From Desulfosporosinus acididurans (lineage in GTDB: Bacteria > Bacillota > Desulfitobacteriia > Desulfitobacteriales > Desulfitobacteriaceae), in assembly GCF_001029285.1 (NCBI RefSeq), contig NZ_LDZY01000001.1:186001-250000 (forward strand): 64,000 bases of DNA, in the 5' to 3' direction. The translations under genes were made by a program, and so were the position numbers. Under the pieces are notes generated by a model. The model was not told the origin of the DNA, searched no databases, and was given only the letters and a program-made list of their open reading frames with translations. Shown here piece after piece: positions 60,261 to 63,441 of the stretch; position 1 is the first letter of the stretch, and each line of letters begins with the position of its first letter.

Positions 60261-60542
60261 TTATTGTTTAGAAGTTTTCTTCCTATCTAACGGCTCAATA
60301 GTTAATCCAAAGTCTCCGGATATAACCTTGTATTTCTCTCCATTAAGTTGAAAAATCTCTCCTTCGCTTAACCCGGATTCGTCAATTTCGCCGCCAAGAT
60401 CAATATCTCTTCTAGTCCATGTTTCTCCATCATCACTGCTGACTTTTACCTCCACAATTGATATTGGTTCCTCGGTACGCTCATAAACCTCTTTTCCGAT
60501 GTAGTCTACGTATTGATCCGCAATTGATTCGTTTTCGCTCAA
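60261..60542 (-). CDS. 93-residue protein of unknown function (element gene)
   Basis: No recognised family. The protein is acidic with beta-rich pattern (ISIVEVKVSSDDGETWTRRDIDLGGEI, GEIFQLNGEKYKVISGDFGLTIEPL), soluble, without signal or membrane segment. A TTG start at 60542 follows GGGGGCTAAGGAT. It may be a phage or element accessory protein. It lies between two XRE regulators. Confidence 0.55.
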   Translation of the reverse strand: MSENESIADQYVDYIGKEVYERTEEPISIVEVKVSSDDGETWTRRDIDLGGEIDESGLSEGEIFQLNGEKYKVISGDFGLTIEPLDRKKTSKQ

Positions 60543-60637
60543 ATCCTTAGCCCCCTTCTTACAGAATGTGTATTCTTTTATATTAGAACACCTGTTCTTT
60601 GTTTCTTCAAGGGGTAAATTGTCGAATGCTCAATATT

Positions 60638-60832
60638 TCACATTTCCTTAATTAATAATTCTAACTCAACGCCTAGACATTTTGCGATAAGTGCCAATGT
60701 TTTTATCTTAGGCCGAATTCTCCCCTCCTCTATTGCTGCAATGTATCCCCGGCTCAATCTGACCGCTTTGGCCAGATCATCTTGAGTCCATCTTTTTTCA
60801 TGGCGAAGATACGCAATTTTTTCCCCTATCAT
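60638..60832 (-). CDS. Compact XRE-family repressor
   Basis: 64-residue HTH protein: KIAYLRHEKRWTQDDLAKAVRLSRGYIAAIEEGRIRPKIKTLALIAKCLGVELELLI, a textbook Cro/C1-type domain with no extra part. The ATG lies next to the divergent intergenic operator region (60855-60967). It probably represses both itself and the plus-strand regulator at 61036. Confidence 0.85.
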   Translation of the reverse strand: MIGEKIAYLRHEKRWTQDDLAKAVRLSRGYIAAIEEGRIRPKIKTLALIAKCLGVELELLIKEM

Positions 60833-60854
60833 GTCGTTCCTTGTTGCTATTAAA

Positions 60855-60967
60855 AGTTTATACCTTAAGTAGTGTCGAATTTAGTCGCAATAACTTGCTT
60901 ATTAACTACATAGTTTACGATAAATTTTCTATAAATTCGACACAATTTTTTTACTTAAGTATAAACT
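60855..60967. promoter_or_regulatory. Divergent operator with nested inverted repeats
   Basis: Left side: AGTTTATACCTTAAGTA (60855-60871) then GTGTCGAATTTA (60872-60883). Right side, inverted: TAAATTCGACAC (60932-60943) then TACTTAAGTATAAACT (60952-60967). TACTTAAGTA (60952-60961) is itself a palindrome. Two classes of site, each in inverted pair, lie between two divergent XRE genes. This resembles a phage-type genetic switch. Confidence 0.75.
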
Positions 60968-61035
60968 TATCCATAAGCTTCCTTTTTCAAAGGAAGCTGG
61001 CTGTTTATGTTGAACATAAGCTCTCGGTGATAATT

Positions 61036-61266
61036 ATGAAGCAACACAAGCATTGTAGGGCTTATGACGTTATGATTAAAAAAGGTATGAGATTAAAAGA
61101 CTTAGAGGGAATAACAGGCTATTCCAAATCTCATTTATCTCAGATACTTAATGGAAAAGATTGTTATTTATCAACCGCCCAGGATATAGCTCTTGCCCTG
61201 GGTGAAAAAGTAGATTATCTTTGGCCTGATTACTTTCATAATGATAGACCTTGGCGACCAAGCTAG
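61036..61266 (+). CDS. XRE-family DNA-binding protein, Cro-like (element gene)
   Basis: 76 residues from the ATG at 61036. The HTH is MRLKDLEGITGYSKSHLSQILNGKDCYLSTAQDIALALGEKVDYLWP, typical of Cro/C1 family. The start was chosen because the longer upstream frame from 60841 runs through the operator. Its ribosome binding site is weak (CGGTGA). It lies opposite the repressor at 60638-60832, in the manner of a repressor/Cro pair. Confidence 0.75.
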   Translation: MKQHKHCRAYDVMIKKGMRLKDLEGITGYSKSHLSQILNGKDCYLSTAQDIALALGEKVDYLWPDYFHNDRPWRPS

Positions 61267-61325
61267 TGTCTATCATTATGATGGGTTGGACATTTTTCAC
61301 ACTCCTCCTTTTTGAAAAAACTAAA

Positions 61326-61370
61326 AAGCCAGCAAGAGCTCTCAATCATATAAGAGCTTTTTGCTGGCTT
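61326..61370 (+). terminator. Inverted repeat after the Cro-like gene
   Basis: AAGCCAGCAAGAGCTCT and AAGAGCTTTTTGCTGGCTT pair with a small bulge over about 45 bases. The run TTTTT lies inside the stem, so it is only a candidate terminator. Confidence 0.5.
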
Positions 61371-61518
61371 CCGTCTTCTGCGGTATTGCCTATTGTTATT
61401 TTAATTATGCTTAGTTTAATCTCTGATTGGTCCTTCGTCAAGTACAAGTGATTGAATTTTTGCTGAAAAGCAGGAAGATCATAAAAAGGACGGAAAATTA
61501 GATCAAAGGGAGTTGAGA

Positions 61519-62395: not shown

Positions 62396-62644
62396 TTACA
62401 TCTTCCACAACAACCACTTGCAAGTATTCAATTCGTATTTTAGCTCAAAGCGTTTCAGCTCTCTGTTAATCTCACTTTGGCACTTAAACAGCAACATCCA
62501 GTTCCCTGCGATCTTCTCTTCTTCCATGGAGATGACCTGCTCGATCTTGACCTCTTTGTCATCGAGTTTCATGCGGATTGGTTGAGGACGGCCGTTAAGT
62601 TCGAACCAAGCTAGGACAGAGATAGGCGTAGCATAAATTTTCAT
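62396..62644 (-). CDS. Small protein translationally coupled to the DNA methyltransferase
   Basis: 82 residues (KIYATPISVLAWFELNGRPQPIRMKLDDKEVKIEQVISMEEEKIAGNWMLLFKCQSEINRELKRFELKYELNTCKWLLWKM), beta-rich and basic. Its ATG overlaps the stop of the upstream methyltransferase gene (ATGA), which means coupled translation. I recall similar small proteins in Firmicutes integrative elements, but know of no assigned function. Confidence 0.75.
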   Translation of the reverse strand: MKIYATPISVLAWFELNGRPQPIRMKLDDKEVKIEQVISMEEEKIAGNWMLLFKCQSEINRELKRFELKYELNTCKWLLWKM

Positions 62645-63441
62645 TTGTCTATCTCTATCTCATAATTACTTATGAATAATTCCTTGGCAAAGCTGCTTTT
62701 ATCGGTTTTGCAAACTGAATATCTTACTTCTATCTCCTTAATGTTAAAGTCGGAATACAGCGCTCGAATCTCCGGATGGTCATTAATACTTAGCAAAAAC
62801 TTTCCCTTTATTTTAGCCAGACATTCCTTCAATCTAATATGATCATCTTTAGAAAATGGTTTGCTCCCCTGACTTGTATAATCAGCCAATCCATAATATG
62901 GCGGATCACAATAGAAAAACGTTGAAGAACGATCGTAACTTAATATAATCTTCTCGACATCCCTGTTCTCTATAATGGTATTTATCAGCCTGTCCCTCAC
63001 AGAGGTTATGCTTTCCCTTACTCGTTCAAGAGTCATCGGTGGCTTCCTTAAAGGACTAATCATAAAATCCTTCATTAAAGATCCAAAGCTAAAATGTAAT
63101 AGGTAATAAAACCTGACTGCCCTTTTTACATCTGAGGTTCCGCTGAGACTTAGAGCCTTGTATTTCTGGAATATTTCTCTTGAAATAAGTAGATAATCCA
63201 ACGCCTGTATGAATTCTTCGGGCTTTTCCTTTACTACTCGAAAAAAGTTAATTAGTTCAGAGTTTATATCGTTGTAGACTTCTACTTTAGAAGGAACCTT
63301 TTCAAAGAGGACCCAGCCAGCGCCTCCGAAGGGCTCACAGTAGCATACATGCTCTGGTATCATCTTTACGATGGTTTTCCTTAGTCTATATTTGCCACCC
63401 ATCCATTTGATTGGACTATTCAAGTCTTCACCACCAAACAT
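62641..63441 (-). CDS. DNA adenine-N6 methyltransferase, D12 (Dam) class
   Basis: Transfers a methyl group to adenine in DNA. Motif X (IKWMGGKYRLRKTI), motif I (CEPFGGAGWVLFE) and catalytic motif IV (FYCDPPYYG) are all present in the Dam order. It has 266 residues. No restriction endonuclease gene is adjacent, so it is probably an orphan (phage- or element-borne) methyltransferase. Its stop codon overlaps the start of the following 82-residue protein by the ATGA arrangement. The recognition sequence (GATC is typical of this class) is not determined here. Confidence 0.93.
   Translation of the reverse strand: MFGGEDLNSPIKWMGGKYRLRKTIVKMIPEHVCYCEPFGGAGWVLFEKVPSKVEVYNDINSELINFFRVVKEKPEEFIQALDYLLISREIFQKYKALSLSGTSDVKRAVRFYYLLHFSFGSLMKDFMISPLRKPPMTLERVRESITSVRDRLINTIIENRDVEKIILSYDRSSTFFYCDPPYYGLADYTSQGSKPFSKDDHIRLKECLAKIKGKFLLSINDHPEIRALYSDFNIKEIEVRYSVCKTDKSSFAKELFISNYEIEIDK

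Follow-up and report, generated by a model that had tools for sequence, protein, structure and literature searches.

Candidate Spo0A boxes in the divergent promoters of a prophage-linked XRE gene pair of Desulfosporosinus acididurans

The Divergent XRE Gene Pair

The window, a stretch of 64,000 nucleotides from Desulfosporosinus acididurans (contig NZ_LDZY01000001.1, positions 186,001 to 250,000), contains two small, divergently oriented genes for XRE-type helix-turn-helix (HTH) proteins, separated by an intergenic region of 203 bp (Table 1). Both proteins gave HTH matches only in Pfam, without a peptidase domain. In the loci which retain the left inner site described below, the recognition-helix region of the leftward protein mostly reads LS[RK]xxIAAIE. 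The rightward gene was matched in 11 of the 29 genomes of the genus, its own included. Relatives recovered by alignment search belong to D. nitroreducens, D. hippei and two further Desulfosporosinus, and two of these records contain sequence that is identical to loci of same-genus genomes.

Table 1. Features of the divergent XRE locus and its flank, in window coordinates.
Feature	Position	Strand	Remarks
Small gene, 93 aa	60261..60542	-	behind the LexA-like promoter; Pfam match only below threshold
LexA-like box GAACACCTGTTC	60586..60597		between TTGAAG (-35) and TCTAAT (-10), hexamers read by eye
Third TGTCGAA	60620..60626	+	downstream of the leftward gene, upstream of the 60261-60542 gene
Leftward XRE-type HTH gene, 64 aa	60638..60832	-	Pfam HTH_3, E=9.6e-14; relatives in the same genus
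TTTAAT, likely leftward -10	60849..60854	-	window only, 18 bp from the left box
Left outer site AAGTTTATAC-CTTAAGTA	60854..60871	+	between leftward -10 and -35; real, match to right arm not conserved
Left inner site TGTCGAA, perfect core Spo0A (0A) box	60873..60879	+	over the leftward -35; invariant in 8/8 aligned loci
Conserved core element, AACTACATAGTT palindrome then TACGATA	60904..60922	+	from the alignment; 20 bp from the right box
Right inner site TTCGACA, perfect box	60936..60942	-	over the rightward -35 (TCGACA); perfect 7-base box in 2/8 loci
Right outer site TACTTAAG + GTATAAACTT	60952..60968	-	spacer end and rightward -10
TATAAA, rightward -10	60960..60965	+	17 bp from TCGACA; within the right outer site
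Rightward XRE-type HTH gene, 76 aa	61036..61266	+	Pfam HTH_26, E=6.1e-07

Prophage Setting

The same genome carries a second copy of the region (C5:114055-114641), which is 83% identical and sits at one end of a tailed prophage encoding baseplate proteins, approximately 2 kb from its endolysin gene. The viral contig L082 starts with the same 400 bases as the region of this second copy. Among the other viral contigs, L084 and L085 have endolysin genes within approximately 1.5 kb of the rightward gene, the latter contig matching D. hippei, and L083 encodes an integrase close to the leftward side. In the element of the window, endolysin and holin genes are located at C1:259523-260811, approximately 12 kb downstream. 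As far as C1:285000, inspection by eye showed no tail genes in this element and a return to ordinary chromosomal genes. The copy in the window is best called a prophage remnant or a small prophage-derived island. Lysis or integrase genes were found near the module in all five contexts examined; in four of these, the lysis genes share a side.

Several neighbouring genes were recorded in passing. The second-copy prophage is adjoined by an ORF for a GspE/PilB-like ATPase (named by eye) of only 152 aa (L018:8113-8571), and may have inserted within a pilus ATPase gene. In the element of the window, the segment L025:3417-8297, which separates the XRE pair from the lysis genes, contains genes for a Y-family DNA polymerase and an HD-domain protein and a pair of genes with an apparent resemblance to sce7725/sce7726; the genes of this segment could be defence cargo. 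Downstream of the switch in the window (62641-63441) lies the gene of a phage-type adenine-specific DNA methyltransferase (phrog_56, E=6.2e-83).

Inverted Sites of the Intergenic Region

Inverted pairs of sites had been described between the divergent XRE genes in an earlier, sequence-only reading of the window, and they are present at that place. The outer pair, AAGTTTATAC (60854-60863) with GTATAAACTT (60959-60968), is complementary at 10/10 positions, and a second outer stretch, CTTAAGTA (60864-60871) with TACTTAAG (60952-60959), is complementary at 8/8. The inner pair, GTGTCGAATTTA (60872-60883) with TAAATTCGACAC (60932-60943), is complementary at 12/12 positions and encloses a core of 48 bp. 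Mirror symmetry between the arms is incomplete: the two site types are separated by 0 bases on the left and by 8 on the right. The left outer site contains one extra C relative to the right.

Within the core, the palindrome AACTACATAGTT (60904-60915) is common to the window, L057 and L083. The core element to which it belongs is a candidate operator for a local regulator combined with a degenerate box; two relatives, L053 and L051, have CGACA at this position.

Two further elements lie towards the rightward gene. The sequence ACTTAAGTATA (60953-60963) recurs at the -10 of several rightward genes, including those of L083, L057 and L027; the recurrence appears to exceed the needs of a -10 sequence and would be compatible with a possible local operator. 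The leader of the rightward gene also contains a perfect 10-bp hairpin, AGCTTCCTTT/AAAGGAAGCT (60976-60998). A terminator reading of this hairpin was dropped, as the tail has no clean T run and the hairpin is not conserved in the paralogue.

Probable Divergent Promoters

Eight of the 12 divergent loci were aligned, namely the window, its own-genome paralogue, the viral contig L083, L048, L052 (D. hippei), L058, L053 and L051; L049, L050, L059 and L054 were left out, as they looked too different. The left TGTCGAA is the longest invariant run of the alignment, with 7 bases versus 3 for the next. Read on the leftward strand, this site is TTCGACA, followed by TTATAG after exactly 17 bp in seven of the eight loci. 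The rightward -35 hexamer is TCGACA in four loci, ACGACA in one (L058) and TTGACA in one (L083), and is lost in two. A rightward -10 sequence of the form TATAAA, TATATA or CATATA lies at 17 bp in 6/8 loci, while L053 and L051 do not fit. The perfect 7-base box of the right arm is shared by the window and L052 only.

The best explanation of this geometry is that the region probably comprises a pair of divergent promoters of the housekeeping type, one for each XRE gene. A strict sigma-70 scan of 60500-61400 returned 0 promoters, against a shuffle mean of 2.7. The presence on each arm of both site types in one and the same order, which had been taken as the mark of sites for two regulators, follows from two promoters that face apart, as the right outer site holds a -10 sequence and the inner sites lie at the -35 positions.

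The Core Spo0A Box and Its Enrichment

The heptamer TGTCGAA is the core Spo0A box, in which mutations of the G and C lowered binding by Spo0A of C. difficile according to PMC3485338. A weaker Spo0A site reported for the same species in PMC7643835, TACGACA, is present in L058, L053, L051, L050 and L049. Copies of CGACA lie 10 bp apart in L049 and L050, and in the window a degenerate copy is spaced 20 bp from the box of the right arm. Tandem 0A boxes are spaced by approximately 10 bp, an arrangement that is not required of every target.

When 7-mers were ranked without a prior motif across the 12 divergent loci, TGTCGAA came first, occurring in 9/12 with 0.23 expected. It was almost tied with CATTCCC, which is located near the leftward start codon (8/12, 0.12 expected; score 12.08 versus 12.11 for TGTCGAA). 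The same heptamer was again ranked top in nine loci with the rightward gene only (6/9, 0.23 expected), with GAAGGAA close behind. Across 21 regions, CGACA/TGTCG totalled 33, versus a mean of 3.84 and a maximum of 10 in 500 shuffles. In the control, TGTCGAA was found within 200 bp upstream of one of 119 genes of at least 150 aa (1/82 in the own genome and 0/37 in a second set, which mixes relatives with contig C18 of the own genome), the control genes being longer than the XRE genes. As the loci are related by descent, the locus counts are not independent events.

The divergent set consists of 11 of the 14 leftward-gene rows together with L083, with L055, L056 and L060, which belong to other XRE classes, left out. 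The rightward set consists of 8 of the 21 rightward-gene rows together with L084. L039, L044 and L046 were left out of it, as were L026, L037, L028, L029, L031, L036, L038, L040, L041 and L043, which repeat or adjoin loci of the divergent set. Of the five viral loci, two (L082 and L085) duplicate others in the sets, and L086 was not included. Neither TGTCGAA nor GTCGAA occurs in L054 and L030, and L049, L059, L033 and L042 are without a perfect box. The distant XRE loci L055, L056 and L060 contain no TGTCGAA, and L039 has no box in 450 bp. The core 0A motif is located in the promoter region, enriched over other promoters and conserved in relatives, the perfect right-arm box being limited to 2/8 loci.

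Host Spo0A

Two Spo0A paralogues are encoded in the own genome (G000:C5:75122-75433 and G000:C1:325575-325886; L089 and L090), the second approximately 79 kb from the divergent XRE locus. An alignment of the first with the solved Spo0A DNA-binding domain 1lq1 spans almost the entire domain, in which SRVERAIRHAIE is identical, and a Spo0A with a conserved DNA-binding domain is thus present in the same cell. Both spo0A paralogues have a perfect box upstream, one as TTGTCGAA (TGTCGAA core at -49) and one as TTCGACA at -92. No perfect box was found here upstream of spoIIGA, which is among the classical targets of Spo0A. Throughout the genome (4.64 Mb), TTGTCGAA occurs 202 times versus 338 for its reversed control, and is therefore neither common by composition nor enriched genome-wide.

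The Third Box and the LexA-Like Promoter

A third TGTCGAA, absent from the earlier account of the locus, precedes the promoter of the small gene at 60261-60542. This gene was matched in 11 of the 73 genomes of the order, its own included. Its predicted promoter contains a conserved LexA-like box between the -35 and -10, as expected of a LexA-type promoter; the form of the box used for GAACACCTGTTC is that of Bacillus. LexA-like sites, GAACCTTAGTTC and GAACATTTGTTT, are also found upstream of the host lexA. The arrangement CGACA..ACCCCTTG..GAAC recurs in the genus, with 12 pattern matches in 11/29 genomes, whereas the reversed control gave none. Two of these matches, L096 and L100, look unrelated, and both failed a narrower scan.

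In two relatives, a Spo0E-like gene (L069:219-380 and L071:1267-1431; Pfam PF09388, E=3.5e-09 and 2.8e-13) is the first behind the CGACA..ACCCCTTG/LexA-like region, ahead of the relative of the small gene. The LexA-like box of L071 is placed further downstream. Spo0E proteins dephosphorylate Spo0A~P.

In L064 and L066, TTCGACA lies between the apparent end of a Y-family polymerase gene (by eye) and a relative of the 60261-60542 gene, and in L066 it is accompanied by a LexA-like box. No leftward-type XRE gene was present in the flanking DNA examined for these two loci.

Alternative Explanations for the Sites

The sequence-only reading had assigned TGTCGAA and the outer site to the two local XRE regulators, as operators through which they would repress each other in a bistable switch. 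This assignment is unlikely to be correct. It has in its favour the inverted sites between divergent XRE genes, the largely constant recognition helix of the loci with a left box, for which a constant operator would be expected, and the core palindrome AACTACATAGTT, which could be a true XRE operator. The outer pair, however, is without within-locus matching. By locus, the left and right outer 10-mers are complementary at 10, 8, 9, 6, 6, 5, 3 and 5 of 10 positions, with a mean of 6.50/10 within loci versus 6.30/10 between loci (n=8). The inner 12-mers give a mean of 7.25 within versus 7.75 between loci (n=8). As the operators of one protein should match better within loci, the outer pair is unlikely to serve in this way, and the outer sites were rejected as a second operator class.

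Also against local operators, TGTCGAA is the top 7-mer at the nine rightward loci, near which no leftward-type gene was found by tblastn (E 0.01, flanks often approximately 1.5 kb a side); such a gene may be present at another place in these genomes, as it is in G021 (L049). In L062 (the same place as L027, where the box belongs to the promoter of the small gene), L064, L066 and L073, TTCGACA is found upstream of the small gene although no leftward-type gene is nearby. L059 retains the third box despite a different HTH. Retention of the box where the HTH sequence differs or no leftward gene is nearby weakens the assignment to local regulators, and a host factor explains the inner site better, this being a core Spo0A box present upstream of rightward genes that have no leftward-type partner nearby. 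What stands of the operator claim is a conserved divergent control region. The proposal to look for the same sites in homologous elements led to a left inner site kept in all eight aligned loci, while the perfect right box was mostly missing and the match of the outer pair was lost.

Less probable again is a pair of divergent sigma-A promoters acting alone, in which TCGACA would be a mere -35, matching TTGACA at 5/6 positions, and no extra factor would be involved. The 17-bp spacing to -10 sequences on both sides agrees with such promoters, as do the TTGACA of the right element in L083 and the rarity of the perfect box on the right arm, but the left element is TTCGACA in all eight loci and never TTGACA. 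The six rightward-only loci with a perfect box have it at varied distances and in the wrong orientation for a rightward -35, although an opposite promoter is conceivable. The third copy, at 60620, precedes a -35 distinct from these two.

A perfect 12-bp pair nested in a perfect 10-bp pair occurred in 0/5000 dinucleotide shuffles of the 203-bp region (inner pair alone 18) and in 0/1263 tiles from elsewhere in the window (42 for the inner pair by itself and 101 for the outer), numbers which are descriptive because the pattern was picked after being seen. The nested repeats are confirmed as real and beyond chance. Chance similarity in A+T-rich intergenic DNA can produce the outer 10-bp pair alone, seen in 249 of the 5000 shuffles, but it is highly improbable as an account of the nested pair, the conserved left box and the enrichment of the box.

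Proposed Mechanism

The reading preferred here, and considered probable, is that host Spo0A~P acts on an accessory, prophage-linked divergent XRE promoter switch. The binding of Spo0A at the XRE promoters, the direction of its effect and its physiological role are predicted from sequence features. In the window, a perfect core 0A box would overlie the -35 of each divergent promoter, the leftward box being the conserved one. Spo0A~P would bind at the leftward -35, and in the window at both -35s, where it would cover the -35 and turn the XRE regulators down as the host heads for sporulation. Repression is modestly favoured over activation, as the spacing of 17-18 bp is near-ideal and the -35 matches at 5/6 positions. 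The 0A boxes at spo0A of B. subtilis have been modelled as mainly repressive (PMC12090719), and repression of the C. difficile sin locus by Spo0A through such boxes is described in PMC7643835. The local XRE proteins may bind elsewhere, for example at the conserved core around AACTACATAGTT.

The third box lies just upstream of the LexA-type SOS promoter, which suggests that the module would read signals of both sporulation and DNA damage. The Spo0E-like gene, likely to encode a Spo0A~P phosphatase, follows the promoter region in two relatives and would allow the module to write back to the sporulation decision. The complete scheme, in which a prophage accessory module of these sulfate-reducing spore formers reads Spo0A~P through its 0A boxes and DNA damage through a LexA promoter with an 0A box of its own, and writes back via the Spo0E-like gene, is put forward tentatively as a possibility with slightly less than an even chance.

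Comparison with Known Systems

In a CI/Cro-type immunity switch, two small HTH genes are divergently oriented around a set of intervening sites. The present locus likewise has divergent genes for two DNA-binding regulators with sites between, but there is no conserved matched operator set, as neither the outer nor the inner pair matches within loci, and the inner class is an 0A box that also occurs without one of the partners. An SOS-sensitive repressor with a peptidase domain, which is not a feature of all CI-type repressors, is absent here, both proteins being HTH-only. A further difference is the position of the lysis genes, which lie on the same side in 4/5 contexts.

The regulators SinR and SinR' are of the XRE type. 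The C. difficile sin locus likewise has Spo0A boxes upstream of small XRE regulators, and repression was shown there (PMC7643835). That locus is chromosomal and has TTCTACA with a degenerate box, whereas here the genes are divergent, perfect boxes lie at both -35s and the locus is prophage-linked.

In phages of the phi29 family, Spo0A sites within the promoters halt lytic growth for a time when the host sporulates (Meijer 2005 and Castilla-Llorente 2009, via PMC9437464), and thus a phage likewise uses host Spo0A sites in its own promoters. Phi29 is virulent and its sites suspend lytic development, whereas here the sites are on a prophage-linked XRE pair next to a LexA-type promoter. It has also been reported that LexA regulates antirepressor, co-repressor or lytic genes of prophages (PMC9437464). 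The present locus similarly has a LexA-like box at a small prophage-linked gene beside a repressor-like gene, with the difference that this box is joined with a Spo0A-type box. Truncated spo0A genes are also carried by phage genomes (PMC10294663).

The use of host Spo0A sites by phage, as in phi29, and the presence of LexA sites in prophage promoters are already known. The combination of Spo0A and LexA sites in a conserved prophage-linked XRE module in Desulfosporosinus seems to be new; among the matches listed from open-licence PubMed Central literature, none described 0A boxes in a prophage-linked switch of this genus.

Significance

A caution that arises from this locus is that sites found in inverted orientation between divergent HTH genes need not be local operators, but can be mirrored promoters that carry the boxes of a host factor. 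For a prophage, staying in or leaving a host that is bound for sporulation is a fate decision. If the proposed reading is true, a conserved, prophage-linked 0A-box module with an SOS promoter, and sometimes with a Spo0E-like gene, would offer a direct way to test whether prophages read starvation and DNA damage jointly.
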